In this document: positions 15,547 through 58,310 of the stretch, in pieces
Numbering within the stretch: position 1 is the stretch's first letter
How the letters are laid out: the number at the start of each line of letters is the position of its first letter
NCBI GenBank assembly: GCA_031291615.1
Contig: JARLIS010000004.1
Location: forward strand, 1-64,000
Direction: 5' to 3'
Length of the DNA stretch: 64,000 nt
DNA from: Parvibaculum sp.
Lineage (GTDB): Bacteria > Pseudomonadota > Alphaproteobacteria > Parvibaculales > Parvibaculaceae
Program-made: the position numbers and the translations under genes
The notes under the pieces: model-generated
The model's input: the letters and a program-made list of their open reading frames with translations, nothing else
Database searches by the model: none
Told to the model about the DNA's origin: nothing

Positions 15547-15564
15547 CCGCAGAAGTCTACGGCT

Positions 15565-15595: not shown

Positions 15596-15610
15596 AACTG
15601 GTGTCGGCCC

Positions 15611-20261: not shown

Positions 20262-20267
20262 GTCAGT

Positions 20268-21585: not shown

Positions 21586-21601
21586 TATTAACTCCAGATT
21601 C

Positions 21602-21688: not shown

Positions 21689-21716
21689 AAATGACGATGC
21701 GGAGACGACACGTCGC

Positions 21717-22984: not shown

Positions 22985-23021
22985 GGGAGTTCTCTCTCAG
23001 CGATATTCAAATTTTGAAAGG

Positions 23022-23146
23022 AAGGCCCTCACCCAACCCTCTCCCAGAAGGAGAGGGCTAGAGAGAGTGTGTGTGTCGCTTTTTCGCCCCTCTCCCTTTG
23101 GGAGAGGGAGGGGCCCACGCCAAAGGCGTGGGAGGGTGAGGGCCTT
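23022..23146. repeat. Palindromic repeat, CCCTCACCC family, full copy
   Basis: The outer arms AAGGCCCTCACCC and GGGTGAGGGCCTT flank inner hairpins such as CCCTCTCC...GGAGAGGG and CCCACGCC...GGCGTGGG. A second full copy is at 33497-33612, and half copies lie within the duplicated segments at 28377 and 29036. Confidence 0.88.
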
Positions 23147-23157
23147 CCGCCATCCGC

Positions 23158-23517
23158 TTACTCCGCGCTCTTCACCTGAAGCCGCGCCTCGACCATGCGG
23201 GCGAGATGCGCGCCGTCGAGCCCGAGCGAGGCGACGGCTTCCGGCACATGCTGAAGCGCGTAGTTCGCGGCCCAGGCCACGAGTTCGCTTTTCACCGTCA
23301 GCGTCGGAGCGCTCGCCTCCGAAGGTTTCAGCTGCGCCGTCGCATAGGCAATGCCCATGCCGAGCGCCTTGTCGAGAATGACGCCCAGTTCACCGTCGCG
23401 CTTCGTTTTCAGGAGCGCGCAAGCCTTCGCGGTCACGAAGGAGGCGAGCGCCGACAGAAGTCCGAGGGCAAGATCGCTGACAAAGGGTTGAATGGAAGCA
23501 AAGTCGATGATGTGCAT
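23158..23517 (-). CDS. Small membrane protein inside the GTA cluster, holin-like
   Basis: The 119-residue protein has one N-terminal hydrophobic segment (FVSDLALGLLSALASFVTAK) and a soluble helical C-terminus (VKSELVAWAANYALQHVPEA, then LDGAHLARMVEARL). That C-terminal pattern resembles the LLH-type phage holin group. The ATG has AAGGA upstream. It lies where g10.1 and g11 are normally adjacent. If it is a holin it would supply the export step for a wall hydrolase. Holin identity is a resemblance, not a firm match. Confidence 0.6.
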   Translation of the reverse strand: MHIIDFASIQPFVSDLALGLLSALASFVTAKACALLKTKRDGELGVILDKALGMGIAYATAQLKPSEASAPTLTVKSELVAWAANYALQHVPEAVASLGLDGAHLARMVEARLQVKSAE

Positions 23518-23563
23518 GGATAATGTCCTTTCATGTTGAATGAAGCCGTCGCGCCCGGAGCGG

Positions 23564-23764
23564 TCAGGCGATGCGATCTGGAAATCTGCCGGCGAGCGCG
23601 GACAGTTCCCGCCGCGTCATTGCCGTTATCGAAGCGGAGGCAAGTCCTGCCCCCCTCGCCGCCGCCGCGAGTTCCGGCAGCGTCATGCGCCAGAACTGAT
23701 CGGGCGGGAGGCGCAGCACGCCGAAGCCGATTTCCATTGCGCGGGCCCAGGGGAATGTCTTCAT
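23564..23764 (-). CDS. GTA g10.1: tail assembly chaperone-like small protein
   Basis: The 66-residue protein matches the rcc01693-type small proteins found after g10 (FPWARAMEIGFGVLRLPPDQ, then FWRMTLPEL). Its ATG overlaps the g10 stop (ATGA). By position and size it is the frameshift-free second tail-assembly chaperone of the cluster. Confidence 0.88.
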   Translation of the reverse strand: MKTFPWARAMEIGFGVLRLPPDQFWRMTLPELAAAARGAGLASASITAMTRRELSALAGRFPDRIA

Positions 23765-24090
23765 TCGCCCCCGCCGCCGAAAGTGGCCGTCAGCAGCTCG
23801 GCGACGATGGCGATGTAGCCCGCCGCGCCGCCTTCCGCCGTCATGTGCGCCACATCCTCGTCGCTCGCGTCGCTGCCCGCGCCTCTCAGCCCCGCGCCGA
23901 TGACGCGGATCGCGTCGCGGGCCGAAATGCGGCCCGTTTCGAAGCGCGCGGCGAGCGCCAGCATGTCCTCGCCGCCGAAGGCGTCTTCCAGTTCGGCGAG
24001 CGCGCCCAGCGTCAGAACGAGCCTCCGCCGCTCGCCGCCCAGCATGGCGTCGATTTCGCCGCGATGACGATTGGTCAATGCCGCCTCCAT
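23761..24090 (-). CDS. GTA g10: tail assembly chaperone
   Basis: The 109-residue protein begins MEAALTNRHRGEIDAMLGGE and has LTLGALAELEDAFGGEDMLA and SARDAIRVIGAGLRGAG, as in the GTA_gp10/Phage_TAC_11 family. The frame could start at 24168, but that extra segment is entirely palindromic repeat sequence and is rejected. The GAGG that serves as ribosome-binding site seven bases before the ATG is the end of the repeat (GCGAGGCC). Confidence 0.9.
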   Translation of the reverse strand: MEAALTNRHRGEIDAMLGGERRRLVLTLGALAELEDAFGGEDMLALAARFETGRISARDAIRVIGAGLRGAGSDASDEDVAHMTAEGGAAGYIAIVAELLTATFGGGGE

Positions 24091-24096
24091 GATGGG

Positions 24097-24207
24097 GCCT
24101 CGCCCTTCGAGACGCGGACCTCCGGTCCGCTCCTCAGGGTGAGGATTGAACTCTGAATTGACCCTCACCCTGAGGAGCCGCGAAGCGGTGTCTCGAAGGG
24201 CGAGGCC
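24097..24207. repeat. Large palindromic repeat, GGCCTCGCCCTTCGAGAC family
   Basis: Perfect 18-bp outer arms GGCCTCGCCCTTCGAGAC / GTCTCGAAGGGCGAGGCC, with an inner pair CTCCTCAGGGTGAGG / CCTCACCCTGAGGAG. Copies occur at 29495-29608, 49367-49465 (diverged) and 51456-51504 (short). Confidence 0.92.
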
Positions 24208-24213
24208 AATGCG

Positions 24214-24627
24214 CTAAATGCTTTCGAAACTCAGCGCGCCCGCGCTCTCAAGCGACATGTCGAAAGTCACTTCGCCGTCATGTTCGCCCGCATATTCAAG
24301 CGCGGTGATCTGGAACGCGCCCGTCACCGTGCCGAAGGAGGGAATGACGATCCGCCAGTTGCGGATCGCACCGTCGAAGAAGAGCTGCCTGACGCTCGCA
24401 TCCGACGCCTCGTCGCGGAAAATGCCGCGCCCCGTAATGCTTGCCGAACGCACGCCCGCGCCTTCCAGAAGCTCGCGCCAGCGCCCGCTCGAATCCGCAT
24501 TGGTGATGTCGACGCTGCGCGCATTGAAGGCGAGCGTGCGCGTGCGCAAGCCTGCCACGGTCGCAAAACTTCCCGTTCCGCCCGCGTCGAGTTTGACGAG
24601 CAGGTCCTTGCCTTTCTGGGCCGTCAT
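24214..24627 (-). CDS. GTA g9: major tail tube protein
   Basis: The 137-residue protein shows the TP901-1-type major tail pattern: KGKDLLVKLDAGGTGSFATV, then GLRTRTLAFNARSVDITNAD, RWRELLEGAGVRSASITGRG and the late SLESAGALSFE. It builds the tail tube. The ATG overlaps the stop of g8 (ATGA) and AGGAGA lies six bases upstream. Confidence 0.93.
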   Translation of the reverse strand: MTAQKGKDLLVKLDAGGTGSFATVAGLRTRTLAFNARSVDITNADSSGRWRELLEGAGVRSASITGRGIFRDEASDASVRQLFFDGAIRNWRIVIPSFGTVTGAFQITALEYAGEHDGEVTFDMSLESAGALSFESI

Positions 24628-25046
24628 ATGTCTCTCTCCTGATGTTCCTCGGTGACGGCGCGGAAGCGGATCGTTCCGCGCCAGGTCGCGCCGTCGGGCT
24701 CGCGCCGCGTCTCGGCGTCGAGAAAACGCAGATTGACGAGCGTGAAGCCTTCAAGCTCCAGCTCCGCCTCATGCAGCGCTGCGTTGAGCGCGCCCATGAT
24801 CGCCTTCGCTTCCGAGCGGCCGCCACCGCGCGAATAGGCGTTGAAGACGAGCCGGTGTTCCGCGCCCCGCGCTTCGCCCGCGCTCCAGTCGCTCACCAGC
24901 GCCTCGCCGAGCGTCACATAGGGAAAGGCCGTATCGCCCGGCACATTGTCGTAGATGCGCGCAGCGACAAGTTCGGCAACGGCTTCGTCGGCGGCGAGCC
25001 GCACATAGATCGCCTTTTGCAGCGCCAGGTCTGCGTCCATGCTCAT
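24624..25046 (-). CDS. GTA g8: tail terminator (DUF3168)
   Basis: The 140-residue DUF3168 protein begins MSMDADLALQKAIYVRLAAD and has VPGDTAFPYVTLGEA and RLVFNAYSRGGGRSEAKAIM. It caps the tail tube at the head side. ATG 25046 overlaps the previous stop (ATGA); longer upstream frame shadows the closure gene. Confidence 0.92.
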   Translation of the reverse strand: MSMDADLALQKAIYVRLAADEAVAELVAARIYDNVPGDTAFPYVTLGEALVSDWSAGEARGAEHRLVFNAYSRGGGRSEAKAIMGALNAALHEAELELEGFTLVNLRFLDAETRREPDGATWRGTIRFRAVTEEHQERDI

Positions 25047-25372
25047 GATGCGCGCTCCTCGCAATCGATGGCGAGCCAGCGCCGTTCGCCATCGGGATCG
25101 AAAGCGCCGTTGATGTCGAGCCGCTTTCCGCGCCACATGAGGCGCATCTCCGGCTTCACATCGGCGCGAAAGCGGATGACGACGCGGTAAGGCGTCCGCG
25201 CCTCGTCGCGCTCGGCGACCGTCGGCTCGCTGCCCTTGAAGGAAGCGACGTCGGCCCAGACGGTCGCAAGCGGCGTCCATCTCACACCCGCGCCGCCCGC
25301 CCCGTCCGGCAGGCGTTCGGGCGCTTCAATGGTTACGCGCTCGCGCAGGTTTCCCGGCTTTCGTCTGCTCAC
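25043..25372 (-). CDS. GTA g7: head-tail closure (stopper) protein
   Basis: The 109-residue protein has the SPP1 gp16-like head-closure pattern (NLRERVTIEAPERLPDGAGG, then WADVASFKGSE, YRVVIRFRADVKPEMRLMWR). The GTG at 25372 overlaps the g6 stop (GTGA), which fixes the start; the longer frame upstream shadows g6. Confidence 0.9.
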   Translation of the reverse strand: MSRRKPGNLRERVTIEAPERLPDGAGGAGVRWTPLATVWADVASFKGSEPTVAERDEARTPYRVVIRFRADVKPEMRLMWRGKRLDINGAFDPDGERRWLAIDCEERAS

Positions 25373-25935
25373 GGGTGCAGCCTCCGATAGGGCGCGACGA
25401 GGGAGGCGACGGTGAGCGGAACTTCCGATGGCGCATCGCCGAAGGCGACCGGCAAGCGCGCCTCGAACCAATGCGCGACGAGCATTTTTATCGCCTGCTT
25501 CAGCGGCGCGGGCACGTCCTCCGCCGCGCCGTAGCCCGCCGTGAAATCGACGGCGATCGCACCGATGCGGCGCGTCGGCGCGGGGAGCCGGCCGAGAGGC
25601 GCCAGGCGCGGCGTATCGCCCGCAAGCGCCGTCGCATACAGCGCGGCGTCGAGTTCCCGCGTCTCGCCGCCATTGCCGACGAGCGCCAGGCGCGTCACCT
25701 CGCTCACCGGCGCCAGCGGCAGAACAATCTCGCCGTTCGGCCAGCGGTCGAGCAGAAGCCGCCAGCCTTGCGTGACGAAGGCGCGCCGCGTTTCCGCTTC
25801 GAGAATGCTGCGCGCCGCCGTGATGAAAGCGGCCAGCAGCGCGTCTTCCTCCATCCCGTCGAGGCGCGGTTGCGCGCGCATCTCGTCGATCGTCACCGGC
25901 TCTTCCGCCGGGCCGGAGATCAGCATCAGTGTCAT
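25369..25935 (-). CDS. GTA g6: head-tail adaptor
   Basis: The 188-residue protein is of the phage gp6-like connector family: EEPVTIDEMRAQPRLDGMEE, then LLAAFITAARSILEAETRRA, GWRLLLDRWP and VDFTAGYGAAEDVPAPLKQA. It sits between portal and closure protein. It starts a run of overlapping genes (g6 to g9) that are translationally coupled. Confidence 0.93.
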   Translation of the reverse strand: MTLMLISGPAEEPVTIDEMRAQPRLDGMEEDALLAAFITAARSILEAETRRAFVTQGWRLLLDRWPNGEIVLPLAPVSEVTRLALVGNGGETRELDAALYATALAGDTPRLAPLGRLPAPTRRIGAIAVDFTAGYGAAEDVPAPLKQAIKMLVAHWFEARLPVAFGDAPSEVPLTVASLVAPYRRLHP

Positions 25936-26023
25936 GTGTCGTTCCTGTGCGAGAAAGTGGCTCCGGCCGCGTCCCGCACCGGGGGCGTGCGGAAGGCGGC
26001 CGGAGCATGCGTGAAGCCTTCCG

Positions 26024-26455
26024 TCAGACGGTCGGCTTCACGGCGGCGCGCGAGAGAATGGCGAGCGCCGAAACCGGCGTGCCGTTCGCATGCGTGCCCG
26101 TCAGCACAAGCGAGATCCGGCTGTAGCGCGCATTGCCGAGATAGCCGATGCGATATTCCTTCTGCGCTTTCGCCGCGGCGTCGACGGTGGCGAAAATGCC
26201 CGCCACCGAAACCGGCCCGCCGCTCACGGACTTCGCGTCCGTCACCGGCGACCAGAGGCTCCCGTCTTCGGAATGTTCGAGCTTCACATCCGTCTTGAGC
26301 GCGCCCGACAGCGTGTCGCCGCTCGCGCCGAAGCAGACGACATGTTCGACCGCCTCGAAGCCCTGGCGGTCGACCGGTGCGCCTGCGCGGGCCGCCGTCG
26401 TCACCGCCGGGTCGAGCGTCTGGACGGTCTTGATGTTTCTGTGCATGTCTTTCAC
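26024..26455 (-). CDS. Extra small protein between capsid and adaptor, unknown
   Basis: The 143-residue protein (MKDMHRNIKTVQTLDPAVTT) is not part of the canonical GTA order, where g5 is followed by g6. It has a beta-rich look (VKLEHSEDGSLWSPV, ISLVLTGTHANGTPVSALAI), as small head decoration or spike proteins do. It starts 11 bases after the capsid stop, with no repeat between them, so it is an integral operon member. A decoration role is inference. Confidence 0.7.
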   Translation of the reverse strand: MKDMHRNIKTVQTLDPAVTTAARAGAPVDRQGFEAVEHVVCFGASGDTLSGALKTDVKLEHSEDGSLWSPVTDAKSVSGGPVSVAGIFATVDAAAKAQKEYRIGYLGNARYSRISLVLTGTHANGTPVSALAILSRAAVKPTV

Positions 26456-26465
26456 GGGGTTCTCC

Positions 26466-27782
26466 TCAAGCCGTTCCGAATTTCAGCAGCTTCAGCGCCT
26501 CGAAGTTCTGCACGCCGCCGCCCACGCGCTTCGTCGTGTAGAAGAGGACGTAGGGCTTCGAGCTGTAGGGATCGCGCAGCACGCGCACGCCGATGCGGTC
26601 GACGATCAGATAGCCGCGCTTGAAGTCGCCGAAGGCGAGCGCGGTTGCGTCCGACGCGATGGACGGCATGTCTTCCGATTCCGTCACCGGATAGTTGAGC
26701 AGCGTCGGCGGCGCGCCGGCGGCGATACCCGGCTGCCAGAGATAGTTCCCCTCCGCGTCCTTGAACTTGCGGATCACCGATTGCGTCGCCCTGTTCATCA
26801 CGAAGCGCGCATTGGCGCGGTAACCCGCCTTCACCGCATAGATGAGGTCGATCAGCACGTCCGACGCGTTGGACGCGGGAAAGGCCCCCGCATTGCCGGT
26901 GACGAGATAGCCGAGCTTGCCGTGGACCCAGCTCGCATTCGCCACCTTGCCGTAGGAGAGAAAGCCGCGCGGGCGGCGGATGCCGTCGCCATTGACGAAG
27001 GCGGCGCCTTCCTGCTCGGCAAAGGTCGTCTGCACTTCTTCGGCGAGCCACTGGTCGATGTCGATGGCGCCGTCGTCGAGCAGCGTCGAGGTCGCCGCCG
27101 GCATGGCGTAAAGCTCCATCGCCGGGAATTCGATTTCGGAGAGCTGCGGGCCCGCCGTTTCGGCGCGCACTTCCGTCTCGCCGACCCAGCCCGCCGCCGG
27201 TCCCTGCGTCGTGAAGGGTTTCTTGTAACTCGCGCCGCTGATCTGGCGGATGCCGGCAATGGCGCGAATGGGCGAAGCGTCGGAAACGATGCGGTCGATC
27301 ATGCGCTCCGTCTCGGCGGGCACCAGGTAGCCGCCGTCGGGATCGGACTGGGCGGAGAGCGCCTTGGCTTCGAGCGACCGCAGCTCATGCGCCTCGCCCT
27401 TCCTTACATAAAGGTCGAAGGCGCGCTTGTGCTCGCGCCGCGCAGGGTCGAGCCGCGGCCGCGCCTCGCCGCCGATCTCGGGCCGGGCGAGCGCCAGCGC
27501 CAGCTCGTCCACCGTCTTCTTCTGCCGGTCGAGCGCACGGTTGATGCGATCGACCTTCTCCTCGGTCAGAACGTCGGCGGTGAGCTTCTTCTCGATCTCG
27601 TCCAGCCGCTCGTCATTGGCTTCCTTGAAACTCTCGAAAGCGCCCAGGAATTCGTCCAGCGCGTCGCGCACTTCGCGGGCGGCGGGCCGCCCGTCGATGC
27701 TTTTCGCCTCGTCGGCGCTTTTCAGCTCAAGCGTCTTCAGCGACGCCCCGATGCGCGGGACGCCTTTATCCATTGCACTCAT
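26466..27782 (-). CDS. GTA g5: HK97-type major capsid protein
   Basis: The 438-residue protein has an N-terminal charged coiled-coil scaffold domain (about 20-110, e.g. DRQKKTVDELALALARPEIG), which the prohead protease removes. The HK97 fold follows (SAQSDPDGGYLVPAETERMI, then RIVSDASPIRAIAGIRQISG, WVGETEVRAET). It is complete and uninterrupted. It begins ten bases after the protease gene. Confidence 0.96.
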   Translation of the reverse strand: MSAMDKGVPRIGASLKTLELKSADEAKSIDGRPAAREVRDALDEFLGAFESFKEANDERLDEIEKKLTADVLTEEKVDRINRALDRQKKTVDELALALARPEIGGEARPRLDPARREHKRAFDLYVRKGEAHELRSLEAKALSAQSDPDGGYLVPAETERMIDRIVSDASPIRAIAGIRQISGASYKKPFTTQGPAAGWVGETEVRAETAGPQLSEIEFPAMELYAMPAATSTLLDDGAIDIDQWLAEEVQTTFAEQEGAAFVNGDGIRRPRGFLSYGKVANASWVHGKLGYLVTGNAGAFPASNASDVLIDLIYAVKAGYRANARFVMNRATQSVIRKFKDAEGNYLWQPGIAAGAPPTLLNYPVTESEDMPSIASDATALAFGDFKRGYLIVDRIGVRVLRDPYSSKPYVLFYTTKRVGGGVQNFEALKLLKFGTA

Positions 27783-27792
27783 GTGCTCTCCT

Positions 27793-28332
27793 TCAGGGTT
27801 TGAAAATCAGCGAGGCCACGCGGATCGCCCGCGCCACGCTCGCATTCGTCTCTCGCATCGTCTTGACGGCGCTGATGCGCGCCTCGGGCAGCATCGGAAA
27901 GGTGACGACGGAGATTTCCCAGAGGTCCACCTCGATGAGTTTCCGAAGTCCCGTCTTCGCATCGGCCCGCGCCTTGACGACGTGGTAGCCGATGGAAAGC
28001 CCGTCGATGGCCCCAGCGCGCATCAGGCTCAGGACCTCGCGCGAGCGGCCGACATCGGGAAGAAGTTTCCCTTCGACGCGCAGGCCGCGCAGGTCCTCCT
28101 TCAGCTTCAGCCAGATGCCGATCACTTCATTGGGATCGTGCTGGTAGAGCATCTTGATCCCGCGCGGGCCCCGCTTTGCGAGCGAACCCCGGAACGCGCC
28201 CGGCATCACCACATCGCGGCCGAGGTCTTCCGCGCCGAAGAGCGAGGCATAGCCCTCGAAGCTCCCGTCCTCGCGCAAACTCTTCACATCAAACCGCGTC
28301 GCCTTGCGCTCGCATGTCCCGCGCTCGTTCAC
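27793..28332 (-). CDS. GTA g4: HK97-family prohead protease
   Basis: The 179-residue serine protease has catalytic-type His (YQHDPNEVIG, His65) and Ser (AIDGLSIGYH, Ser113), with FEGYASLFGAEDLGRDVVMP at the N-terminus. GTG 28332 is preferred over the ATG at 28350 because GGAGGAAAC precedes it at the right distance and the family starts with a short lead before KATRFDVKSL. A terminator lies only 19 bases upstream, so expression needs antitermination or a promoter in that gap. Confidence 0.93.
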   Translation of the reverse strand: MNERGTCERKATRFDVKSLREDGSFEGYASLFGAEDLGRDVVMPGAFRGSLAKRGPRGIKMLYQHDPNEVIGIWLKLKEDLRGLRVEGKLLPDVGRSREVLSLMRAGAIDGLSIGYHVVKARADAKTGLRKLIEVDLWEISVVTFPMLPEARISAVKTMRETNASVARAIRVASLIFKP

Positions 28333-28350
28333 GTTTCCTCCGTATGCCAA

Positions 28351-28375
28351 TAAAAAAGGCGCCCGACGGGGCGCC
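28351..28375 (-). terminator. Intrinsic terminator inside the GTA cluster
   Basis: On the minus strand GGCGCCCC GTC GGGCGCC is followed by TTTTTTATT. It lies between the coiled-coil gene and the protease gene and points along the GTA operon. Confidence 0.82.
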
Positions 28376-28376
28376 T

Positions 28377-28582
28377 GCCTTCAGCCTCAATGCTCCTCGT
28401 CACCCCGGCCTTGAGCCGGGGTCCATCTTCCTGCCGCTCAGAATGAAAGATGGATGCCGGGTCAAGCCCGGCATGACGGCGTGGGGGATGCGCCTTCTAG
28501 CCCTCTCCCTCTGGGAGAGGGTTGGGTGAGGGCCTTCCTACCTTCCCGCCGCCACCGCCCGGTCCAGCTTCTCCTCGATCCG
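28377..28582. repeat. Left copy of a ~200-bp direct duplication flanking the immunity-like gene
   Basis: It shares order and sequence with 29036-29264: TTCAGCCTCAA, a GTCACCCCGG palindrome, CCATCTTCCTGCC, the GATGCCGGGT...AAGCCCGGCATGACGG palindrome, AGCCCTCTCCCTCTGGGAGA and the 3' end of the coiled-coil gene. The last part (28538-28582) still encodes RIEEKLDRAVAAGR plus stop on the minus strand, compared with IEEKLDRAVSGGR in the intact gene. Confidence 0.85.
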
Positions 28583-28646
28583 TAAGCGGAAACTCCGCTA
28601 TTCTGATTTCCGCCTGGAGCCGCCAACGACCGGAGACCGAGAAATC

Positions 28647-29030
28647 ATGCATCGCAGACTTTTTCTCTCTGCATTTCTGTCCGCCCCCGTTGCAATGACC
28701 AATTTGGCCGTCGCGGCCGAGGATGAAGACATATCCATGCTCCTTTGGCGCTCCGCCGACCGCGATCTGGCTACTCGCGAAGTGGCCCTCGCCATGGCCA
28801 CAATGATCTTCAAAAATATCTATGGCGACCTTGATTTCGAATCCCAGCTTCCCTTGCACATCACCGATGCCGGCGACCGCTGGAACGTAGAAGGAAGTCG
28901 GAAGGCAGAGGAACACCTCCCGTCAAAGGGCGAAGCCGCGAAAGGAAGAGTCGAAATTGTGATCCTCAAATCCAATTGTCAGGTCGTCAAATTAACGCAG
29001 AAAACTTATCTACCCACGGGTAGCGAGTAG
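28647..29030 (+). CDS. Exported NTF2-fold immunity-like protein inserted in the GTA cluster
   Basis: The 127-residue precursor has a signal peptide (MHRRLFLSAFLSAPVAMTNL, cleavage near AVA-AED). The mature part has the pattern of the NTF2-fold immunity family: an A-type helix (REVALAMATMIFKNIYG), a central WNVEGS strand, then GRVEIVILKSNCQVVKLTQK. Members protect against polymorphic toxins. It is on the opposite strand to the GTA operon, is visibly richer in A+T than its neighbours, and lies between two copies of a 200-bp duplication. No toxin gene is adjacent. Family assignment is by pattern only. Confidence 0.65.
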   Translation: MHRRLFLSAFLSAPVAMTNLAVAAEDEDISMLLWRSADRDLATREVALAMATMIFKNIYGDLDFESQLPLHITDAGDRWNVEGSRKAEEHLPSKGEAAKGRVEIVILKSNCQVVKLTQKTYLPTGSE

Positions 29031-29035
29031 CTTCG

Positions 29036-29264
29036 GCCTTCAGCCTCAACCCCATTCGTCACCCCGGCCTTGCTTGTCCCGGCGAAAGCCGGGAAGCCGG
29101 AGTCCATCTTCCTGCCGTTCAGAAGGAAAGATGGATGCCGGGTCGAGCCCGGCATGACGGCGTGGGGGGATGCGCCTTCTAGCCCTCTCCCTCTGGGAGA
29201 GGGTTGGGTGAGGGCCTTCCTACCGTCCGCCCGACACCGCCCGGTCCAGCTTTTCCTCGATCCG
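29036..29264. repeat. Right copy of the duplication flanking the immunity-like gene
   Basis: Same elements as 28377-28582 plus a ~20-base expansion in the first palindrome. Its last part is the true 3' end of the coiled-coil gene (stop at 29220-29222). Confidence 0.85.
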
Positions 29265-29486
29265 CGCCAGCGATGCCCGCATCGCGTTCGACTGTTCTTC
29301 GAGCCGCGCCGTGCGCTCGACCAGTTCGTCGGTGCGGGCGGCGCGGGTTTCGAGCGTGGTCAGCCTTTCGGCCGCCGCGCCGGACCAGGTCAGCGCCGCG
29401 CCGGTCTGCAGCAGGATGGTGGCGACGAGCGCCACCGGAATGTGCCGGTCGAGTTTCCAGCCCGCATTCTCGCCGAGTTTCATCAT
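29220..29486 (-). CDS. Small membrane coiled-coil protein at the g3.5 position
   Basis: The 88-residue protein has one membrane span (IPVALVATILLQTGAALTW) and a C-terminal coiled coil (ERLTTLETRAARTDELVERT, then ARLEEQSNAMRASLARIEEK). Proteins of this plan occur between portal and protease in GTA clusters; the function is unknown. Its 3' end is duplicated at 28538-28582, across the inserted immunity-like gene. Confidence 0.75.
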   Translation of the reverse strand: MMKLGENAGWKLDRHIPVALVATILLQTGAALTWSGAAAERLTTLETRAARTDELVERTARLEEQSNAMRASLARIEEKLDRAVSGGR

Positions 29487-29494
29487 CTCCTCCG

Positions 29495-29608
29495 GGCCTC
29501 GCCCTTCGAGACGCGGACCGAAGGTCCGCTCCTCAGGGTGAGGATTGAATTCTGAACTGAATCCTCACCCTGAGGAGCGGAGAAGCCGCGTCTCGAAGGG
29601 CGAGGCCC
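29495..29608. repeat. Large palindromic repeat between portal and g3.5-like gene
   Basis: Second copy of the 24097-24207 element, with the same GGCCTCGCCCTTCGAGAC outer arms and GTGAGG inner arms. It ends five bases before the portal stop codon. Confidence 0.9.
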
Positions 29609-29612
29609 CTGC

Positions 29613-30830
29613 TCAATCCCCGCGCGGCCCATAGCCCACCGCCGCGCGCTTTTCCTCCTCGCTCAGGAAATCCGCCTTCGACACGCGCGCCCAAAGCGCC
29701 TCGCGTTCGGCCGAGAGCGCTTCCACCTGATCGGCGTCGTACCAGAGGCGAAGTCCCTCGCCGTAGCGCGATCCGAGCCAGCGCGTCAGCGCGCGGGCGG
29801 TGCGGCCTGCAAGCGGCAGCACGGTCTGCCGCCAGAAGGTGCGGTTCGCCTCCTGATAATTCGAAAACGTGTTGTCGCCCGGAATGCCGAGCAGCATCGG
29901 CGGCACGCCGAAGGCGAGTGCGATCTCGCGGGCGGCGGCGCGCTTCGCCTCGATGAAATCCATGTCCTTCGGCGTCAGGCCCATCGCCGTCCAGTCGAGC
30001 CCGCCTTCGAGGAGCAGCGGCCTGCCGGCATTGGCCGCGCCCTGATAATTCTCCGACAGTTCGCGCTTCAGCCGGTCGAACTGGTCTTCGGTCAGGTTCC
30101 GGTTGCCATCGCCGCCCTTGTAAACGAGCGCGCCCGAAGGCCTTGCCGCATTGTCCAGGAGCGCCTTGTTCCACGCGCCCGCCGCATTGTGAATATCGAC
30201 AGCGAAAGCCGCCGCCTCCATCGGCGACAGGCCGTAGTGATCGTCGGTCGGGTGGAAGAGCCGCATATGCAGGATCGGCGCAAGTCCCCGCGCCGGATCG
30301 TAGGAGAAGCGCGCCGTCCTTCCGTCGACGGAATATTCGTAAGCCTCCGGCCAGCCCGAGCGACCCGGCACCGCCTTCATCCGGTCGGGCCGCAGCACGT
30401 AAAGCTCGCGCGGGTCTCCATCCAGTTCGACAAGCTCCATATAGGCGTTGCCCGCGACTTCGAGAAAGCCGTACCAGCTTTCGAAGAAATCCGTGCCGCT
30501 TTCATGCGGGTTCGGCCGCTCGATCAGCGACAGCAGCGGATGCGCCGTCAGCTCGCGCGCGCCGTCGTAAAGAAGCCAGGGCACAGATGCCGCCGCTTCA
30601 GCGATCATGCGCACGCAGCGGTAGGCGACTGCGTTCCGCTCGAAGCCTTCCCGCGCCAGCGCCCCGAAGTCGCGTGGCGTCCAGACGGCGCGGCCCTGCA
30701 ACTCCAGCGCGATGAGCGGCCCCGTGCGGCTCGCCTTTTCCTCGGGCCTCGGCTGATGCGGCACGCGCGGGTCGCGCCGCATCAGCGCGGCGAGCCTGCT
30801 CCAGGGTCCGGCGATCGTATCGGTCGGCAT
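29613..30830 (-). CDS. GTA g3: portal protein (HK97 family)
   Basis: The 405-residue portal protein shows NAVAYRCVRMIAEAAASVPW, ERPNPHESGTDFFESWYGFL, VAGNAYMELVELDGDPRELY, YEYSVDGRTARF, GLSPMEAAAFAVDIHNAAGA and GVPPMLLGIPGDNTFSNYQE. It forms the DNA gate of the head. ATG 30830 (MPTDTIAGPW) is preferred; an ATG at 30848 is possible. The frame can extend to 31106 but that part is antisense to the inserted DUF1003 gene. Confidence 0.95.
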   Translation of the reverse strand: MPTDTIAGPWSRLAALMRRDPRVPHQPRPEEKASRTGPLIALELQGRAVWTPRDFGALAREGFERNAVAYRCVRMIAEAAASVPWLLYDGARELTAHPLLSLIERPNPHESGTDFFESWYGFLEVAGNAYMELVELDGDPRELYVLRPDRMKAVPGRSGWPEAYEYSVDGRTARFSYDPARGLAPILHMRLFHPTDDHYGLSPMEAAAFAVDIHNAAGAWNKALLDNAARPSGALVYKGGDGNRNLTEDQFDRLKRELSENYQGAANAGRPLLLEGGLDWTAMGLTPKDMDFIEAKRAAAREIALAFGVPPMLLGIPGDNTFSNYQEANRTFWRQTVLPLAGRTARALTRWLGSRYGEGLRLWYDADQVEALSAEREALWARVSKADFLSEEEKRAAVGYGPRGD

Positions 30831-30984
30831 GGCGATTATTTTCCTCATTCTTTTTCGTCGAACGAAATTTGACCGGCCGCGCGGCGGCTTCGTCACTCCC
30901 GCGCCGCGCACCCGCGTGTTAGCGTCCAGCCATGGCGCCGGGGGGCGTCCAGGCGTTCGCGCAGGCGAAGCGGCGGGGAACTCG

Positions 30985-31512
30985 ATGCAAGCGACTGACG
31001 TGCTCAAGAAAGAACTGCATGAAGCGGAAGAGCGGTTGCTCGCCGAACTGCGCACCCTGCGCGGAGGCTTGCGCGTGCGCGACCAGGGCGAGAAGGCCGT
31101 CGACACGCTGACCGTCGGCCAGAAGATCGCCGATCAGGTCGCCGCCACCATGGGCTCGTGGAAATTCATCATCATCCAATCCGTGATCCTGATTGCCTGG
31201 ATTGCACTCAACCTCACCGCCTATGTGCGGAACTGGGACCCTTATCCCTTCATCCTGCTCAATCTGGCGCTGTCGTTTCAGGCCGCCTATGCGGCGCCCT
31301 TCATCATGATGAGCCAGAACCGCCAGCAGGACATCGACCGCAAGGAGGCCGAGAACGATCATCAGATCAACATCAAGGCCGAACTTGAAATCGAACTTCT
31401 GCATCAGAAGATCGACGAGCTGCGCGAGAAGGAAGTCCTGTTCCTCACCCAGGCGATCAGCGATCTGACGGAATTGCTGAAGCGCGAGAAATCCGCAGGC
31501 GTTCCTCTATAG
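30985..31512 (+). CDS. DUF1003 membrane protein inserted between terL and portal
   Basis: The 175-residue protein has a soluble helical N-terminus, two membrane spans (FIIIQSVILIAWIALNLTAY, then PFILLNLALSFQAAYAAPFI), MMSQNRQQDIDRKEAENDHQ and a helical tail, the standard DUF1003 layout. Family members are of unknown function and usually lie among transport or stress genes, not phage genes. It is on the plus strand, its 3' end overlaps the terL 3' end by six bases, and ATG 30985 follows a GGGGAA. It interrupts the usual terL-portal adjacency. Confidence 0.88.
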   Translation: MQATDVLKKELHEAEERLLAELRTLRGGLRVRDQGEKAVDTLTVGQKIADQVAATMGSWKFIIIQSVILIAWIALNLTAYVRNWDPYPFILLNLALSFQAAYAAPFIMMSQNRQQDIDRKEAENDHQINIKAELEIELLHQKIDELREKEVLFLTQAISDLTELLKREKSAGVPL

Positions 31513-32844
31513 CCGTCTCACCTTCGGGCTGCCGCTCTCGCCGTCGAGCATCAGGTCGGTGAGCGCCCAGACCAGCGCGTCCACCCGGTCGGGACTCCTG
31601 GTCATGCCCGGCACGAAATCGCACATCTGGTCTTCCAGCTTTGCGAGCGAGCCCAGATGCGAGACGAGGCCGCGTTCGTATAGCGCCGCCACGGGTTCGG
31701 CCCGCGCCTGCTTGCCCCGCGTCGCGCGCACCAGTTTCAGCGGCGCCGCCGGCATCACCTGCCGCATGATCGCGGCCACCATCTCGCCGCCCTGATTGAC
31801 CTCCGCGACGATGCGGTCGGCCTCATGGTCGCGAAAGGCCTTCGCCGCGCGGTTCGCCCAGGCAAGCGGCGTAAGCCCGCCCATAGAGCGGTCGTCGAGC
31901 ACGAAGCCGCGTCCTTCCGCATCGACGCCCGCGACCACGATGCCGCATTCATCCGCATTCGCGCCGCTCGTCGCCGGCGGATCGACGGCAACAACGATGC
32001 GCGCGAGAGCGGGCGCCGCGCGCAGTCGGCCCGCATCGATCACGCCCCGCGACCAGAGCGCGTCCGGATTGTCCTCGATCAGCTCGGCGTCGAGTTCCTG
32101 CCGCCCGAGCCGCGTTCCTTCGTAGCGCGTTATCACCGAGCGGAAGAAGGCGGCGGCGAGGTTCGCGCGGTTCGCATAGGTGCTCGCCTTCGTCACCATG
32201 CTGGCCTCGTCAGCCAGCAATCGCTTCAATATCGGCGCGGGGCGCGGCGTCGTCGTCACCACCTGGCGGGGGCGCGCGCCGAGCCGCAATCCGAATTGCA
32301 GCATGTCCCAGGCGTCTTCGGCATGCCGCCATTTCGCCACCTCGTCGGCCCAGGCGGCGTCGAATTGCGGCCCGCGCAGTCCTTCCGGTTCGGAGGCCGA
32401 GAAGGCATGCGCCACCGCCCCGTTCGGCCAGAGCAATCTCTTGCGCGAGGCTTCGTAGCGCGGCCGGTTCCGTCCCAGCGCGCCAAGGCCCGAAGGCCCG
32501 TCGATCATCACTTCGCGCACATCGGCGAAAGTTTCGCCGACAAGCGCGATGCGTCCGGCGCGTCCCGCTTCCACTTCGCCGCGCACCCATTCCGCGCCCG
32601 CCCGCGTTTTGCCCGCGCCGCGTCCGCCCAGCACCAGCCAGGTCGTCCATTCGCCTTCGGGCGCCAGCTGGTCGGCCCGCGCCCAGAAAGGCCAGTGCTC
32701 AAGCAGCCAGGCCGTTTCCCTCGGGGCGAGGCTCGCAAGGAACTCCGCCCGCATTGTCTCCAGCAGCGATCCGAGCGAGGCGGCGCTCAAGTTCGGCGCG
32801 CAAGGCCTCTGCATCCTCTGCTGTGTCGCCGGATTTCGGTTCAC
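31507..32844 (-). CDS. GTA g2: terminase large subunit
   Basis: The 445-residue protein has Walker A GGRGAGKT (residues 73-80), Walker B-like FDAAWADE, a coupling/C-motif region (GARPRQVVTTTPRPAPILKR) and the RNase H-like nuclease with VVAVDPPATS near its start and DRVDALVWALTDLM at the end. It packages host DNA into GTA heads. The frame begins with GTG 32844, well inside g1; ATG 32814 or 32754 are alternatives and the overlap with g1 (up to 146 bases) makes the start uncertain. Confidence 0.94.
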   Translation of the reverse strand: MNRNPATQQRMQRPCAPNLSAASLGSLLETMRAEFLASLAPRETAWLLEHWPFWARADQLAPEGEWTTWLVLGGRGAGKTRAGAEWVRGEVEAGRAGRIALVGETFADVREVMIDGPSGLGALGRNRPRYEASRKRLLWPNGAVAHAFSASEPEGLRGPQFDAAWADEVAKWRHAEDAWDMLQFGLRLGARPRQVVTTTPRPAPILKRLLADEASMVTKASTYANRANLAAAFFRSVITRYEGTRLGRQELDAELIEDNPDALWSRGVIDAGRLRAAPALARIVVAVDPPATSGANADECGIVVAGVDAEGRGFVLDDRSMGGLTPLAWANRAAKAFRDHEADRIVAEVNQGGEMVAAIMRQVMPAAPLKLVRATRGKQARAEPVAALYERGLVSHLGSLAKLEDQMCDFVPGMTRSPDRVDALVWALTDLMLDGESGSPKVRRL

Positions 32845-33328
32845 GTTTCGCCTTCGCGGCCTTGATGTCGTTCAGTTTTTCCAGCGAGCGCACCAGCGTC
32901 GACAGACGCCGCGCATCGCGTTCCTTTTCGACGGCGTCGCGCTCATGCGCGATTTCGCCCTCGATCGATTCAATCTCCCGCGCGATCAGGCGCTTCAGCC
33001 GCGTCGCGAGGCGAACGGGTTTCAGCGCCGAGCCCATCAGTTCGCTTGCCGGCGCGTCCCGATACTTCGCCGCCGTGCGGGACTGCCAGCCGTTCACGGT
33101 CGCATGGCGAATGACCTTCTGCGCGGAGACGCCCGCGAAATCCGCAATGGCGGTCAGAGCGTTCGACCTGTCCTCATAGAGCAGACGGATCGCCGCCCAG
33201 TCGGGTCCGGCCTCGTCGGGTTCCGGTTCCGGCGCGACCGGTTTCGCCGCGCGCTTCGGCGCTTTCGCCTTCGGCTTTTTCGCTTTGGGTTTTTTCCCGG
33301 CCGGGGCGGATTTCTTCACATGGACCAT
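32699..33328 (-). CDS. GTA g1: terminase small subunit-like protein
   Basis: The 209-residue protein has a Lys/Pro/Ala-rich start (KKPKAKKPKAKAPKRAAKPV), a helix-turn-helix (WAAIRLLYEDRSNALTAIAD, then FAGVSAQKVIRHATVNGWQ) and a long coiled segment (IESIEGEIAHERDAVEKERD). This matches GTA g1, which binds the large subunit and lacks specific pac-site choice. ATG 33328 was chosen; the upstream extension to 33511 passes through hairpins and a repeat. It is the first gene of the structural cluster. Confidence 0.85.
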   Translation of the reverse strand: MVHVKKSAPAGKKPKAKKPKAKAPKRAAKPVAPEPEPDEAGPDWAAIRLLYEDRSNALTAIADFAGVSAQKVIRHATVNGWQSRTAAKYRDAPASELMGSALKPVRLATRLKRLIAREIESIEGEIAHERDAVEKERDARRLSTLVRSLEKLNDIKAAKAKREPKSGDTAEDAEALRAELERRLARIAAGDNAGGVPCEPRPEGNGLAA

Positions 33329-33412: not shown

Positions 33413-33496
33413 GGTCATGGGTGAAGACGCAATTGTGGAGATGGACCGAAGATAGGAACGCAGCGCGCCGCTGCCAATTGGGGATATCTCGAAAAG

Positions 33497-54074: not shown

Positions 54075-54509
54075 ATGAGCATCGAAGACCTGATCGAGGA
54101 TTTTTCGTTCCTCGACGACTGGGAAGAGCGCTACCGCTATGTCATCGAACTCGGCAAGACGCTCGAGCCGCTGAGCGACGAGGAACATTCGCCCGCGAAC
54201 AAGGTCGAGGGCTGCGTGAGCCAGGTCTGGCTCGTCACCGAGGCCAGGAAAGGCGAAGACGGCGGCACGCGCCTTGTCTTTCGCGGCGACAGCGACGCCT
54301 TTATCGTCCGCGGACTGATCGCCATTCTCCTGCGCATCTATTCGGGCCGGACGCCGGCCGAGATCGACGCGATCGAGGCGCGGCCCATATTCGAGAAGCT
54401 CGGCCTCAACGAACATCTGAGCCCGCAGAGATCGAACGGCCTCTATTCGATGGTCGGCCGCGTCAAGGCCGATGCGAAGGCGCAGCTCGCTGCCCTCGCC
54501 CGGGGCTGA
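54075..54509 (+). CDS. sufE: SufE family cysteine desulfuration protein
   Basis: The 144-residue SufE protein accepts sulfur from SufS for iron-sulfur cluster assembly. The acceptor Cys47 is in KVEGCVSQVWL, and the family motif MSIEDLIEDFSFLDDWEERY starts the protein. It is convergent with the DUF6456 gene. Confidence 0.95.
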   Translation: MSIEDLIEDFSFLDDWEERYRYVIELGKTLEPLSDEEHSPANKVEGCVSQVWLVTEARKGEDGGTRLVFRGDSDAFIVRGLIAILLRIYSGRTPAEIDAIEARPIFEKLGLNEHLSPQRSNGLYSMVGRVKADAKAQLAALARG

Positions 54510-54522: not shown

Positions 54523-55299
54523 TCATTTTCCTTTCGCCGCGTAATGCGCCGCCAGCCGGTCGAGCGCGATCTGGAGCACGATCTTGGCGGAGCGTTGCGG
54601 CCAGCCGAAGCGGCGCTCGGATTCTTCCAGGCCGCGCGCATGGCAGCATACCTCAACGAGAATGTCCGAGAGGCCGGGGCCGACGGCGTGGAGCGCGCGG
54701 GCGAGGCGTTCGCGCGCGGCAAGCGCCCTGTCCGACACATCAGAGGGATCGCGCAGCTTGCGCCCGCCGCCGCCGGGCGCGAGCGCCAGCGACCAGTCCG
54801 TGGTGACGCGCGGGCTCATCCGCGCCAGCGAGAAATCGCGGCGAAGCTTCTCTCCCGCATCGAATGCATGTTCGTTGACAAGCGGTTTTCCGTCCGGGCC
54901 CTTGCGGCGGCGGAGCCAGTCGAGCGAGGTTTCGGCCTCGTTCACCGCCACGGGCACGAGTTTGCCGTCGACGGCGACGAGGCGGCGGCCCTGCATCTGA
55001 TGCTGGGCGCGGAACGGATCGCTTTCGGCTTCGAGGCGGCGCCAATAGGCAAGGCCCGTTTCGCTCGGGTGCCACACGTCGCCGGCCGGTTGCCGCGCGG
55101 CGCGGACGAAATCGCGATGCTCGAAGGCGGACCACAGGCGCGCTTCGACATGCGCGACCGGGCGGCGCCAGCGGTTGCGGGCGATGAAGAGGCCCATGAC
55201 GCCGCCCGCGTCGGGTGCGGCGAAACTTTGCGGCTCGGCAAAACGGCGGAACACGCGGCGCACTTCGCGTTCGACTTCATGCTCGGATACGAGGCTCAT
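54523..55299 (-). CDS. gafZ: DUF6456 protein, probable GTA activator/antiterminator GafZ
   Basis: The 258-residue protein has the DUF6456 region, with ESPL-like core NEAETSLDWLRRRKGPDGKP, DAGEKLRRDFSLARMSPRVT, then LSDILVEVCCHARGLEESER, FGWPQRSAKIVLQIALDRLA. In Caulobacter GafZ, and in the C-terminal half of Rhodobacter GafA, this type of protein activates the GTA cluster; GafZ acts as an antiterminator. It follows the DnaA-domain gene by ten bases, as gafZ follows gafY. Assignment rests on my recall of domain architecture and on the presence of the GTA cluster. Confidence 0.7.
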   Translation of the reverse strand: MSLVSEHEVEREVRRVFRRFAEPQSFAAPDAGGVMGLFIARNRWRRPVAHVEARLWSAFEHRDFVRAARQPAGDVWHPSETGLAYWRRLEAESDPFRAQHQMQGRRLVAVDGKLVPVAVNEAETSLDWLRRRKGPDGKPLVNEHAFDAGEKLRRDFSLARMSPRVTTDWSLALAPGGGGRKLRDPSDVSDRALAARERLARALHAVGPGLSDILVEVCCHARGLEESERRFGWPQRSAKIVLQIALDRLAAHYAAKGK

Positions 55300-55309
55300 C
55301 GGCGTCCTC

Positions 55310-55723
55310 TTACTGAATGTTTCCGGAGAGGGGCTTTGCGCGGACGGCGCGTTCGAGGCGGTCGAGCATCAGGTCGAATTTCGGGTCGTCGCGCCGGTCC
55401 TCGATGTAGCGGCAGGCATGGGCCGCCGTCGTCCGGTCGCGGCCGAAATGCCGACCGACCGCCGACAGGCTGAAGCCGAAGGCGACATGGGTGAGATACA
55501 TCGCAACCTGCCGGGCGAAGGCGACCGGCGCGCGGCGGCGCGTCGGCGCCCGCAATTCGGCGACGGGAACGGAGAGGGCCCGGGCGATCGTCTCCTGCGT
55601 CAGGGCCACCTGGGCCGCCCTTTCGAGCTCGCGGCGGACGCGCCTGTCGACCCTGGTCAGCCTCATCAAAACTATCGGTGCAGCCTCCGCCCGCCTCGGC
55701 CGCCCGCCACTCAACATCAGCAT
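55310..55723 (-). CDS. gafY: DnaA-domain-IV-like DNA-binding protein, probable GafY
   Basis: The 137-residue protein carries a DnaA C-terminal (domain IV) helix-turn-helix: FARQVAMYLTHVAFGFSLSA, then VGRHFGRDRTTAAHACRYIE. No AAA+ ATPase domain is present, so it is not DnaA. This is the domain of Caulobacter GafY and of the N-terminal half of Rhodobacter GafA, which bind the GTA promoter. ATG 55723 has GGGAGG five bases upstream; the longer frame runs through the promoter and is rejected. The promoter carries a LexA-type box. Confidence 0.72.
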   Translation of the reverse strand: MLMLSGGRPRRAEAAPIVLMRLTRVDRRVRRELERAAQVALTQETIARALSVPVAELRAPTRRRAPVAFARQVAMYLTHVAFGFSLSAVGRHFGRDRTTAAHACRYIEDRRDDPKFDLMLDRLERAVRAKPLSGNIQ

Positions 55724-55751
55724 TGCACCCTCCCTGATCTGGACTTGACGA

Positions 55752-55788
55752 AATATAATTGGAACGTTACGAGAACAAACGACGTTCC
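55752..55788. promoter_or_regulatory. gafY promoter with LexA-type box and 28-bp palindrome
   Basis: On the minus strand a -10 TATATT (55757-55752) follows GTTC-N7-GTTC (plus-strand GAAC 55762-55765 and 55773-55776), the alphaproteobacterial SOS box, with TTGTTC/GTTTGT as a weak -35. Superimposed is the inverted repeat GGAACGT-N14-ACGTTCC (55761-55788), a possible dimer site for the divergent XRE repressor. Confidence 0.65.
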
Positions 55789-55815
55789 CGAACAAAAAGT
55801 TACGCCTTACGTAAG
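55766..55815. promoter_or_regulatory. Operator-like repeats in the gafY/rogA intergenic region
   Basis: GTTACG occurs at 55766-55771 and 55799-55804, 33 bases (three helical turns) apart, and CTTACGTAAG is a perfect palindrome at 55806-55815. Repeats of this kind between divergent genes suit cooperative binding of the XRE protein. Confidence 0.45.
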
Positions 55816-55872
55816 TGGTGGGGATAAATTCCCGTAAAATCCTCAATAAACCCCCTTGAAGGGAGGTGACCT

Positions 55873-56439
55873 TTGAGAACGCGGATCAGGCACTACCGCA
55901 AAATGCGGCGGCTTACGCAGGCTGACCTTGCGGCAATCATCGGAACGACGGCCGCAACCGTTTCGCGTCTTGAAACGGCCGACATGACGGTCTCCATGGA
56001 CTGGCTGAAGCGGTTCGCTGACGTTTTCAAAGTCCAGATCGCCGATCTGATCGACGAGGCCAGGACGAACGGCGTGCCTTGCGTCGGCGCGATCGGCCGG
56101 GACGGCCTGCTCGAAACGCAGGGCTTCAGCGAAGAGACGGCGGTGACGTTCGAGCCGCCTGCCCGCCATCCCATCGCATTGCGCATACGTGAAAATGTCG
56201 GCGCCTATTGCGCCGGCGATATCGTCATCGCCGACCGGCTGGCGCCGGAAGATGCCTCGCGCGCGCTGGGGCGCGATTGCATCGTCGAGGTGCATGGGGA
56301 AGGAAGCGGCTTCGGCCGCTTCGTGTCATCGGTCGATGGACACTTCCTGCTGGTGCCGCCGGAACCGGGCGCTCAGGCGCGGCCGCTGGCGACGCCGGAC
56401 TGGATCGCGCCCGTCGTCATGCTGATCCGGTATTTGTAA
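55873..56439 (+). CDS. rogA: XRE repressor with degenerate LexA/S24-like domain, probable RogA
   Basis: The 188-residue protein has an N-terminal Cro/CI helix-turn-helix (RRLTQADLAAIIGTTAATVS, RLETADMTVS). Its C-terminal domain resembles the S24/LexA fold (IALRIRENVGAYCAGDIVIA, then DGHFLLVPPEP). The SM catalytic serine motif expected before GDIVIAD is missing, so self-cleavage is unlikely. TTG 55873 has GGGAGGTGA upstream. It is divergent from the GafY-like gene, as expected for RogA, the repressor of gafYZ in Caulobacter. Whether it is the true orthologue is inference. Confidence 0.68.
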   Translation: MRTRIRHYRKMRRLTQADLAAIIGTTAATVSRLETADMTVSMDWLKRFADVFKVQIADLIDEARTNGVPCVGAIGRDGLLETQGFSEETAVTFEPPARHPIALRIRENVGAYCAGDIVIADRLAPEDASRALGRDCIVEVHGEGSGFGRFVSSVDGHFLLVPPEPGAQARPLATPDWIAPVVMLIRYL

Positions 56440-57576: not shown

Positions 57577-57993
57577 CTACTTCGAGCCGCGACGGCGCGG
57601 GCGGCCCTTCTGGCCGAGGCCCATCTTCTTGGCAAGCTTGGAGCGCGCCTGGGCATAGTTGGGCGCGACCATCGGGTAGTCGCGCGGCAGGTTCCATTTG
57701 TCGCGGTATTCGTCAGGGTCGAGATCGTAATGCGTGCGCAGGTGGCGCTTCAGCGACTTGAATTTCTTCCCATCCTCAAGGCAGATCAGATAATCGGGCG
57801 TGATCGACTTGCGAACGGAGATCGCGGGCTCCTGCTTTTCCGCCGCTTTGGCGGCGCCGCTGGCGATTTGTGTCAGAGCGTCGAAAACCTGATGAATGAG
57901 ACCGGCGAGATCGGACTGCGCCACGCTGTTATGACTGACGAAAGCGGAAACAATATCCGCCGTCATGTCGATGATCTCTGCCTTGTCGCTCAT
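57577..57993 (-). CDS. mucR: MucR family zinc-finger regulator
   Basis: The 138-residue protein has the Ros/MucR layout: an N-terminal helical oligomerisation part (ADIVSAFVSHNSVAQSDLAG), LIHQVFDAL, then the zinc finger YLICLEDGKKFKSLKRHLRT and HYDLDPDEYRDKWNLPRDYP. MucR proteins are H-NS-like silencers of A+T-rich DNA. ATG 57993 has AAGGAAG upstream. The A+T-rich region before the gene fits autoregulation. Confidence 0.94.
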   Translation of the reverse strand: MSDKAEIIDMTADIVSAFVSHNSVAQSDLAGLIHQVFDALTQIASGAAKAAEKQEPAISVRKSITPDYLICLEDGKKFKSLKRHLRTHYDLDPDEYRDKWNLPRDYPMVAPNYAQARSKLAKKMGLGQKGRPRRRGSK

Positions 57994-58310
57994 ATCTTCC
58001 TTTCCGACTTTCGCCCGGCCAGCCGGACACACAACTAAACTGGCGAATATTTGGATTAACCTGACCCCTCGGGCGAGCTTATATCAATAGACAATTTTCC
58101 CTTCAATAGTCGCCGAACTCACACAAAGACTACTATAGATTGCACAAATAATCGGCTGGCGAATCAAAATAGAATTTTATCGGCCCGAAAAAGAGGCGAT
58201 AGAAGAATTTCACGCCTCGCCGGACATGCCGCAGAGCGACCATCCGCGCCTTGGCGCGGGGGCGAGGCTTCGCGCATAATGCGCCACTTTCAATGCGGAG
58301 CCCTCAAGGC
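57994..58310. other. A+T-rich gap between mucR and the Rieske gene
   Basis: About 200 bases (58033-58215) are A+T-rich with T-A steps (ATATTTGG, TTATATCAATAG, CTATAGATTG), as preferred by MucR/Ros. Apart from promoter potential for both divergent genes nothing else is seen. Confidence 0.5.

Follow-up and report, generated by a model that had tools for sequence, protein, structure and literature searches.

Gene Content of the gafYZ Locus

We analyzed a stretch of 64,000 nucleotides from Parvibaculum sp. (contig JARLIS010000004.1, positions 1 to 64,000; hereafter the window), in which a putative control locus, gafYZ, accompanies the structural cluster of a gene transfer agent (GTA). The genes gafY and gafZ lie on the same strand, 10 bases apart, and an XRE-family gene is divergent from them. 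An initial annotation had described this arrangement, an operon of a DUF6456 gene and a DnaA domain-IV gene facing away from an XRE gene; the open reading frames (ORFs) are indeed present, and Pfam agrees with their assignment. That account had no LexA box, yet an exact one is found in the gafY promoter. The features of the locus, with the neighboring genes assigned by Pfam, are as follows.

54523–55299, minus strand: gafZ, DUF6456 protein of 258 amino acids, predicted GTA antiterminator/activator (PF20057, E 2.7e-49)
55310–55723, minus strand: gafY, DnaA domain-IV helix-turn-helix (HTH) protein of 137 amino acids (PF08299, Bac_DnaA_C, E 1.4e-16)
55762–55776, minus strand: LexA (SOS) box GTTCTCGTAACGTTC, exact GTTC-N7-GTTC, in the gafY promoter region
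55800–55814, minus strand: dyad TTACGTAAGGCGTAA, candidate binding site for the XRE repressor
55820–55827, minus strand: TTATCCCC, a candidate GafY element that resembles a DnaA box and also occurs in the GTA promoter
55873–56439, plus strand: XRE repressor gene, 188 amino acids (HTH_26, E 6.3e-10), with a lambda CI/LexA-type C-terminal domain
54075–54509: sufE, flanking the locus
57577–58032: MucR gene, flanking the locus

The longest frame of gafY is 55310–55846 (minus strand), and its likely start is the ATG at 55723, preceded by a good Shine-Dalgarno sequence, AGGGAGG; the XRE gene starts at a TTG preceded by GGGAGGTGA. Pfam lists no AAA+ domain for the gafY product. Compared with the Caulobacter vibrioides DSM 9893 proteins, GafZ is 40% identical over 134 amino acids (E 2e-23) and GafY 43% over 93 (E 6e-24), and GafY also matches the Escherichia coli DnaA domain IV structure 1j1v (E 4e-9). 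That genome has gafY and gafZ in the same order near sufE, and the labels GafY-like and GafZ-like are supported. In the family of the window (f1), gafZ was found in 38 of 40 genomes and an XRE relative adjoins gafY in 33 of the 40, so that the arrangement is more than a chance association. A split gafYZ operon with sufE downstream and mucR/HTH upstream has been described in Hyphomicrobiales by Sherlock and Fogg (PMC9638019). Given these published neighbors and the homology to Caulobacter, the gafYZ part of the locus is of an already known kind.

A LexA Box in the gafY Promoter

Comparison of the XRE-gafY intergenic regions reveals three ordered elements, namely TATCCCC, the dyad TTACG-N5-CGTAA, and the direct repeat GTTC-N7-GTTC, which we take to be the LexA box of alphaproteobacteria. 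In each of the 19 genomes checked the repeat stands before lexA, and the window genome has it before recA too. LexA-type boxes were also seen there upstream of mraZ, of a DNA polymerase III alpha gene, which has two, and of a ComM/YifB-type gene (L041, L044, L045); behind another such box, a contig-edge ORF without a Pfam match was read by eye as uvrA. At the gafYZ locus, about 40 bases separate the box from the gafY ATG, whose promoter region it lies in, and about 97 separate it from the start of the XRE gene.

All direct repeats of 4 bases with spacers of 3–14 were counted in 39 gafY promoter regions, 33 of them from f1, three from family f111, and one each from f51, f84, and f4. GTTC-N7-GTTC was clearly the commonest, occurring in 19 of the 39 regions; the next unrelated repeat occurred in 9, and 0.27 would be expected from shuffled sequences. 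Its placement is nearly constant as well: the box starts 49–51 bases from TATCCCC in 17 of the 18 promoters with all three elements and 47 bases from it in the remaining one, a spacing that spans genera g1 and g4 and family f111. At the f51 locus, which is without the dyad, the distance is 12 bases.

The box is present in 15 of the 37 f1 loci inspected (13/25 in g1, 2/2 in g4, 0/7 in g3, 0/1 in g5, and 0/2 in g2), and the four XRE-less f1 loci have none. Across the class, 73 genomes had a DUF6456 match, from which only strong matches (at least 110 bits) were taken and weaker ones dropped; the 1,500 bases upstream of the DUF6456 domain were then inspected in 36 loci of other families. Four of these 36 have the box in the gafY promoter region (all three f111 loci and the single f51 locus), and a reversed control pattern occurred once in 35 of them. 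At an f66 locus the box overlaps the gafZ start and was not counted as belonging to a gafY promoter. Mapped onto a GafZ tree with 42 rows, the box needs 7 changes, compared with a shuffled mean of 14.0; the box is clustered on this tree and, if ancestral in the genus, would have been lost there more than once.

A Boxed Cell-Wall Hydrolase beside the GTA Cluster

A further exact box lies beside the GTA structural cluster, upstream of a gene for a cell-wall hydrolase.

15611–33327, minus strand: GTA structural cluster (terminase, portal, protease, capsid, and tail families), with a DUF2793 ORF at its end
14748–15158, minus strand: SleB-like cell-wall hydrolase (Hydrolase_2, PF07486, E 3.9e-7), candidate GTA lysin, likely start at the ATG at 15137
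15161–15175, plus strand: LexA (SOS) box GTTCCTATTTTGTTC in the hydrolase promoter region, oriented oppositely to that of the other 10 boxed homologs
15152–15167, minus strand: dyad TAGGAACAAATGCCTA overlapping the box, RogA-operator-like by eye

The Hydrolase_2 score is 31.0 bits at a cut-off of 27, and a homolog at L110 falls below that cut-off (20.7). When the region downstream of the GTA cluster was surveyed in 21 genomes (with partial coverage of G003 and G007), 14 were found to have a homolog and 11 of these 14 carried the box, the next unrelated repeat occurring in 5. No homolog was found near the cluster in the other 7 genomes, and the homologs of G018, G028, and G036 have no box. G013, a single-contig genome of the same genus as the window, is boxed both at the hydrolase gene and at gafYZ. 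Inspected by eye, the boxes often stand between TTGACA-like and -10-like words, and the hydrolase box is neighbored by a dyad of TAGGAA...TTCCTA type, like the published site of RogA. The hydrolase may act as a GTA lysin. Between the end of the GTA cluster and the hydrolase gene there is also a small ORF (15211–15639, minus strand), by eye GIY-YIG endonuclease-like.

The Divergent XRE Protein and RogA

The XRE protein had been labeled RogA-like in the initial annotation, a label of which only the structural part survives. RogA of Caulobacter is a protein of 213 amino acids (PMC9632790). An S24-type protein of this size is encoded in C. vibrioides, taken here as RogA by its length, domains, and missing catalytic residues, not by locus tag, and it has a 54%-identical partner of 213 amino acids in the window genome, on another contig (G000:C3:112339-112698, L186). 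Compared with this RogA ortholog, the window XRE protein gives an E value of 9.8, and its best match in the C. vibrioides genome (E 0.176) covers the HTH only, which rules out identity with RogA. On the other hand, the XRE and RogA families share the combination of HTH and S24-like domain, and their profiles align over the whole length (hhalign 82%, E 1e-5). As judged from these comparisons, the XRE protein is RogA-like only in build and is not RogA. A 216-amino-acid HTH match in the genome (G000:C7) was also rejected as RogA, being by eye an XRE-cupin gene beside an aminotransferase gene.

Searched against PDB sequences, the XRE protein returned a single weak HTH match. Its AlphaFold model (predicted local distance difference test score, pLDDT, 82; predicted template modeling score, pTM, 0.57) resembles lambda CI and LexA in both domains, the C-terminal one having the S24 fold. 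The top Foldseek matches were lambda and lambda-186 hybrid repressors (E 2.6e-6 to 1.3e-5), with a template modeling score of only 0.4 over both domains, and comparison with the lambda CI C-terminal domain gave a Z score of 11.6 over 118 amino acids at 3.3 A. By eye, the GDSM-type serine motif is absent from the window XRE protein, which has RENVGA in its place, and from its 10 relatives in alignment A1. Direct RecA-driven cleavage is therefore unlikely, and the cis-encoded CI-like repressor is probably non-cleavable. In the RogA ortholog of the window genome the LexA-type Ser (GDSM), Lys, and Ala-Gly are kept (by eye), where C. vibrioides RogA has GDD and Arg; this ortholog may thus be cleavable, unlike its Caulobacter counterpart.

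Candidate Sites for the XRE Repressor, GafY, and GafZ

The dyad TTACG-N5-CGTAA scores at least 8 out of 10 in 24 of 38 XRE-adjacent promoters, compared with 2.6 expected from base shuffles, and its end lies 26–28 bases from TATCCCC in all 28 promoters where both were found. In the XRE-less sister genomes G017 and G026 (L010, L012) the dyad score falls to 5 and an exact GGAA-N4-TTCC is present as the palindrome GGAATTTATTCC, a possible switch to RogA-type control. The gafYZ intergenic region of the window has no exact site of this type; the best match, at 7 of 8 positions, was rejected as a RogA site. In the g3 genomes (L003, L013, L016, L018, L025, L026, L029) the candidate dyad reads TTGCR-N5-YGCAA and occurs alongside a diverged XRE HTH, possibly reflecting co-evolution of operator and repressor.

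In 14 of 25 genomes the word TATCCCC/GGGGATA occurs at both the gafYZ and the GTA promoter (next best word 4, shuffled maximum 5); in the six g3 genomes compared it occurs in neither promoter. The GTA promoter of the window has the following candidate elements.

33480–33488, minus strand: GATATCCCC, candidate GafY element directly upstream of the GTA promoter
33449–33474, minus strand: candidate GTA promoter core, dyad GCAGCG-GCG-CGCTGC (GafZ-element-like) and -10 TATCTT

In C. vibrioides the counterparts of the promoter core are GCGCCCGCTGGCGC and TATCTTT. This dyad, a candidate GafZ element (ZBE), is present in the window and in many, not all, of the family promoters read. A conserved CCATCTCCAGAATTGTG-like element (33428–33444 in the window, minus strand) follows right after the -10 in many family genomes and might serve for pausing or for the loading of GafZ. 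As for GafY, its mapped site in Caulobacter was mutated as ACTATG, and chromatin immunoprecipitation in Caulobacter did not, on its own, yield a motif for GafY (PMC11150451). The C. vibrioides sequence at the mapped site is ACTATGGGGAT, in which a GGGGAT core abuts ACTATG. A DnaA-box-like word is thereby suggested as the target of GafY, itself a protein with a DnaA domain, and the TATCCCC element is a candidate GafY site.

Linkage of gafYZ to the GTA Cluster

The window cluster has the gene order of RcGTA-type elements, terminase-portal-protease-capsid-tail, and gafYZ lies about 21 kb from it. This proximity, to which attention had been drawn as a useful property of the window, is real but not special to it, and as a distinguishing feature of the window it is ruled out: gafZ and the capsid gene share one contig and one strand in all 21 family genomes that could be resolved, 22–35 kb apart in 20 and 69 kb apart in one. 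In 10 further genomes the two genes are on different contigs. Outside the family, the distance is 58 kb in G043 (f5) and 34 kb, on one strand, in G246 (f111), and the genes are unlinked in G050 (f12), 633 kb apart on different strands. From these gene positions, the linkage is ancestral in the family of the window.

A Model for SOS Control of the GTA

In prophage switches of the lambda CI/LexA type, a CI-fold repressor is encoded divergently from an activator or antiterminator operon, with input from the SOS response. The gafYZ locus is probably a lambda-like switch of this sort that a domesticated prophage has retained. GafY, through its DnaA-like HTH, and the antiterminator-like GafZ would activate the GTA cluster 21 kb away via TATCCCC elements, and probably also their own operon via the copy in the gafYZ promoter. 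Two repressors would act on that promoter, the divergently encoded CI-like XRE protein at the TTACG-N5-CGTAA dyad and the host LexA at GTTC-N7-GTTC, about 23 bases beyond the dyad, while the second LexA box would keep the hydrolase gene off. Upon DNA damage, cleavage of LexA would relieve both gafYZ and the hydrolase, coupling GTA production and lysis to SOS. Unlike in the lambda CI/LexA switches, the window repressor is without the cleavage-serine motif and the SOS input would be host LexA itself.

The genes, their homology, the boxes, their fixed spacing, and their recurrence are directly legible in the sequences; we infer that LexA, the XRE protein, and GafY bind there, that regulation runs in the direction described, and that the hydrolase is a lysin. 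We consider it likely that gafYZ is kept silent by LexA together with a CI-like repressor that is probably not cleavable, and that SOS releases the activator and lysis genes. A broader version we favor by a smaller measure: the GTA would be SOS-inducible in at least three alphaproteobacterial families, with LexA as a direct repressor of gafYZ, the master operon of activation, and, in the family of the window, also of the GTA-adjacent lysin; the CI-like repressor would be non-cleavable, the damage sensor of the prophage having been replaced by that of the host; the coupling would have been lost repeatedly; and GafY would read TTATCCCC, a DnaA-box variant.

Several observations weigh against this model. 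The box is missing from 22 of the 37 f1 loci, including all seven of g3, although all 19 genomes checked, several of which belong to those 22, have the box at lexA itself; by this absence, SOS coupling would be optional and not a rule of GTAs. No box was found in the named Caulobacter and Rhodobacterales loci, except for a GC-centred match in Caulobacter Root343 (one of nine named-record loci; not counted). Exact boxes are not rare, as 87 occur in the genome, three of these within the window (the third at 7913), compared with 48 for the reversed control, and scanning the gafY-XRE intergenic region of the window with a sigma-70 consensus gave no promoter. A LexA box on the main GTA promoter was looked for and rejected, none being there in 26 upstream stretches (L065 and L067 short). 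The genomes G016, G024, and G025 are boxed at the hydrolase only and not at gafYZ. In the XRE-less L004 and L090 the dyad still scores 8 and 6, and its loss is therefore one event in one lineage. Finally, among the 19 genomes boxed at gafYZ, 14 have a match to the window capsid (12 family genomes plus G246 of f111 and G100 of f51), G318, G020, and G029 have tail-protein matches (in G029 as fragments) and no capsid match, and G019 (L031) and G160 (L204), both rated 100% complete and with an XRE gene, have no GTA capsid or tail-protein match. Persistence of the boxed operon where no GTA is detected weighs against a strict GTA role or else indicates recent loss; in such genomes the operon may have another role, or may have survived the loss of the GTA. 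Separately, in three g3 stretches a box lies about 500 bases beyond the GTA promoter, inside the g1 gene.

Alternative Explanations

In the strongest of the alternative scenarios the locus is an ordinary Caulobacter-type GafYZ/RogA switch, with the XRE protein as the equivalent of RogA, responding to starvation and other signals, and with the boxes unused. The homology of GafYZ to the Caulobacter proteins fits this scenario, as do the shared HTH and S24 build of the XRE and RogA families and the repression of gafYZ by both XRE proteins and RogA in Caulobacter (PMC9632790, PMC10688885); the box, moreover, is lacking at most of the loci from model GTA groups, and it occurs in two genomes where no GTA genes were detected. 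Nevertheless, a separate RogA ortholog is encoded elsewhere in the window genome, the gafYZ intergenic region lacks an exact GGAA-N4-TTCC, and both the recurrence and the spacing of the boxes are far above chance. We regard this scenario as unlikely.

Alternatively, the boxes could be real but read by another repressor of the S24 family, either the RogA ortholog or the XRE protein. The LexA-type residues kept by the RogA ortholog would suit such a reader, and at the hydrolase promoter the box, inspected by eye, is overlapped or adjoined by RogA-type dyads. However, the box precedes lexA in every genome checked and recA in the window genome, the published site of RogA is GGAA-N4-TTCC (PMC9632790), and at the f51 locus, which has the box, the stretch read showed no XRE gene. 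We consider a reader other than LexA improbable. That the box serves the XRE gene instead, in which case SOS would shut the switch, is very improbable: LexA could affect the divergent gene from the shared intergenic region, but the box is much nearer to the gafY ATG (about 40 bases) than to the XRE start (about 97), and at f51 it precedes gafY, with no XRE gene in the sequence read there.

Comparison with Known Systems and Implications

With the GafYZ/RogA switch of C. crescentus (PMC9632790, PMC11150451) the window shares the gafY-gafZ operon, a nearby sufE, a GafZ-element-like dyad in the GTA promoter, and the GGGGAT core at the mapped GafY site. It differs in that C. vibrioides DSM 9893 has no XRE gene adjoining gafY and no LexA box was found at its gafYZ; Caulobacter RogA, which binds GGAA-N4-TTCC, is encoded away from gafYZ (PMC9632790), and lysis there is by LypABC (PMC13236601), unlike the candidate hydrolase described here. 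Neither "SOS" nor "LexA" appears in the main text of that 2026 lysis paper. The Rhodobacter capsulatus GafA and the split gafA of Hyphomicrobiales have the same two domains, GafA being a single chain, and the passages on the split operons report no promoter elements (PMC9638019). LexA acts on the R. capsulatus GTA apparently through cckA (PMC9638019, PMC6363796). In Dinoroseobacter shibae, in silico LexA sites are likewise listed at the GTA cluster, recA, and dprA, but gafA is listed with CtrA sites and not with LexA sites (PMC6473078). As far as the surveyed portions of the literature on gafYZ, RogA, and LexA extend, no LexA site at gafYZ and no direct SOS input to a GTA activator are described.

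With LexA boxes on gafYZ and on the neighboring hydrolase, DNA damage becomes a directly testable candidate for a natural trigger of GTAs, and the naming of the adjacent XRE gene is corrected, as it is not RogA. GTA DNA helps damaged Caulobacter cells (PMC9632790). In this context, the arrangement of the boxes suggests that DNA damage switches the GTA on in the bacteria studied here, and that small changes in promoters can connect a single GTA lineage to different signals.

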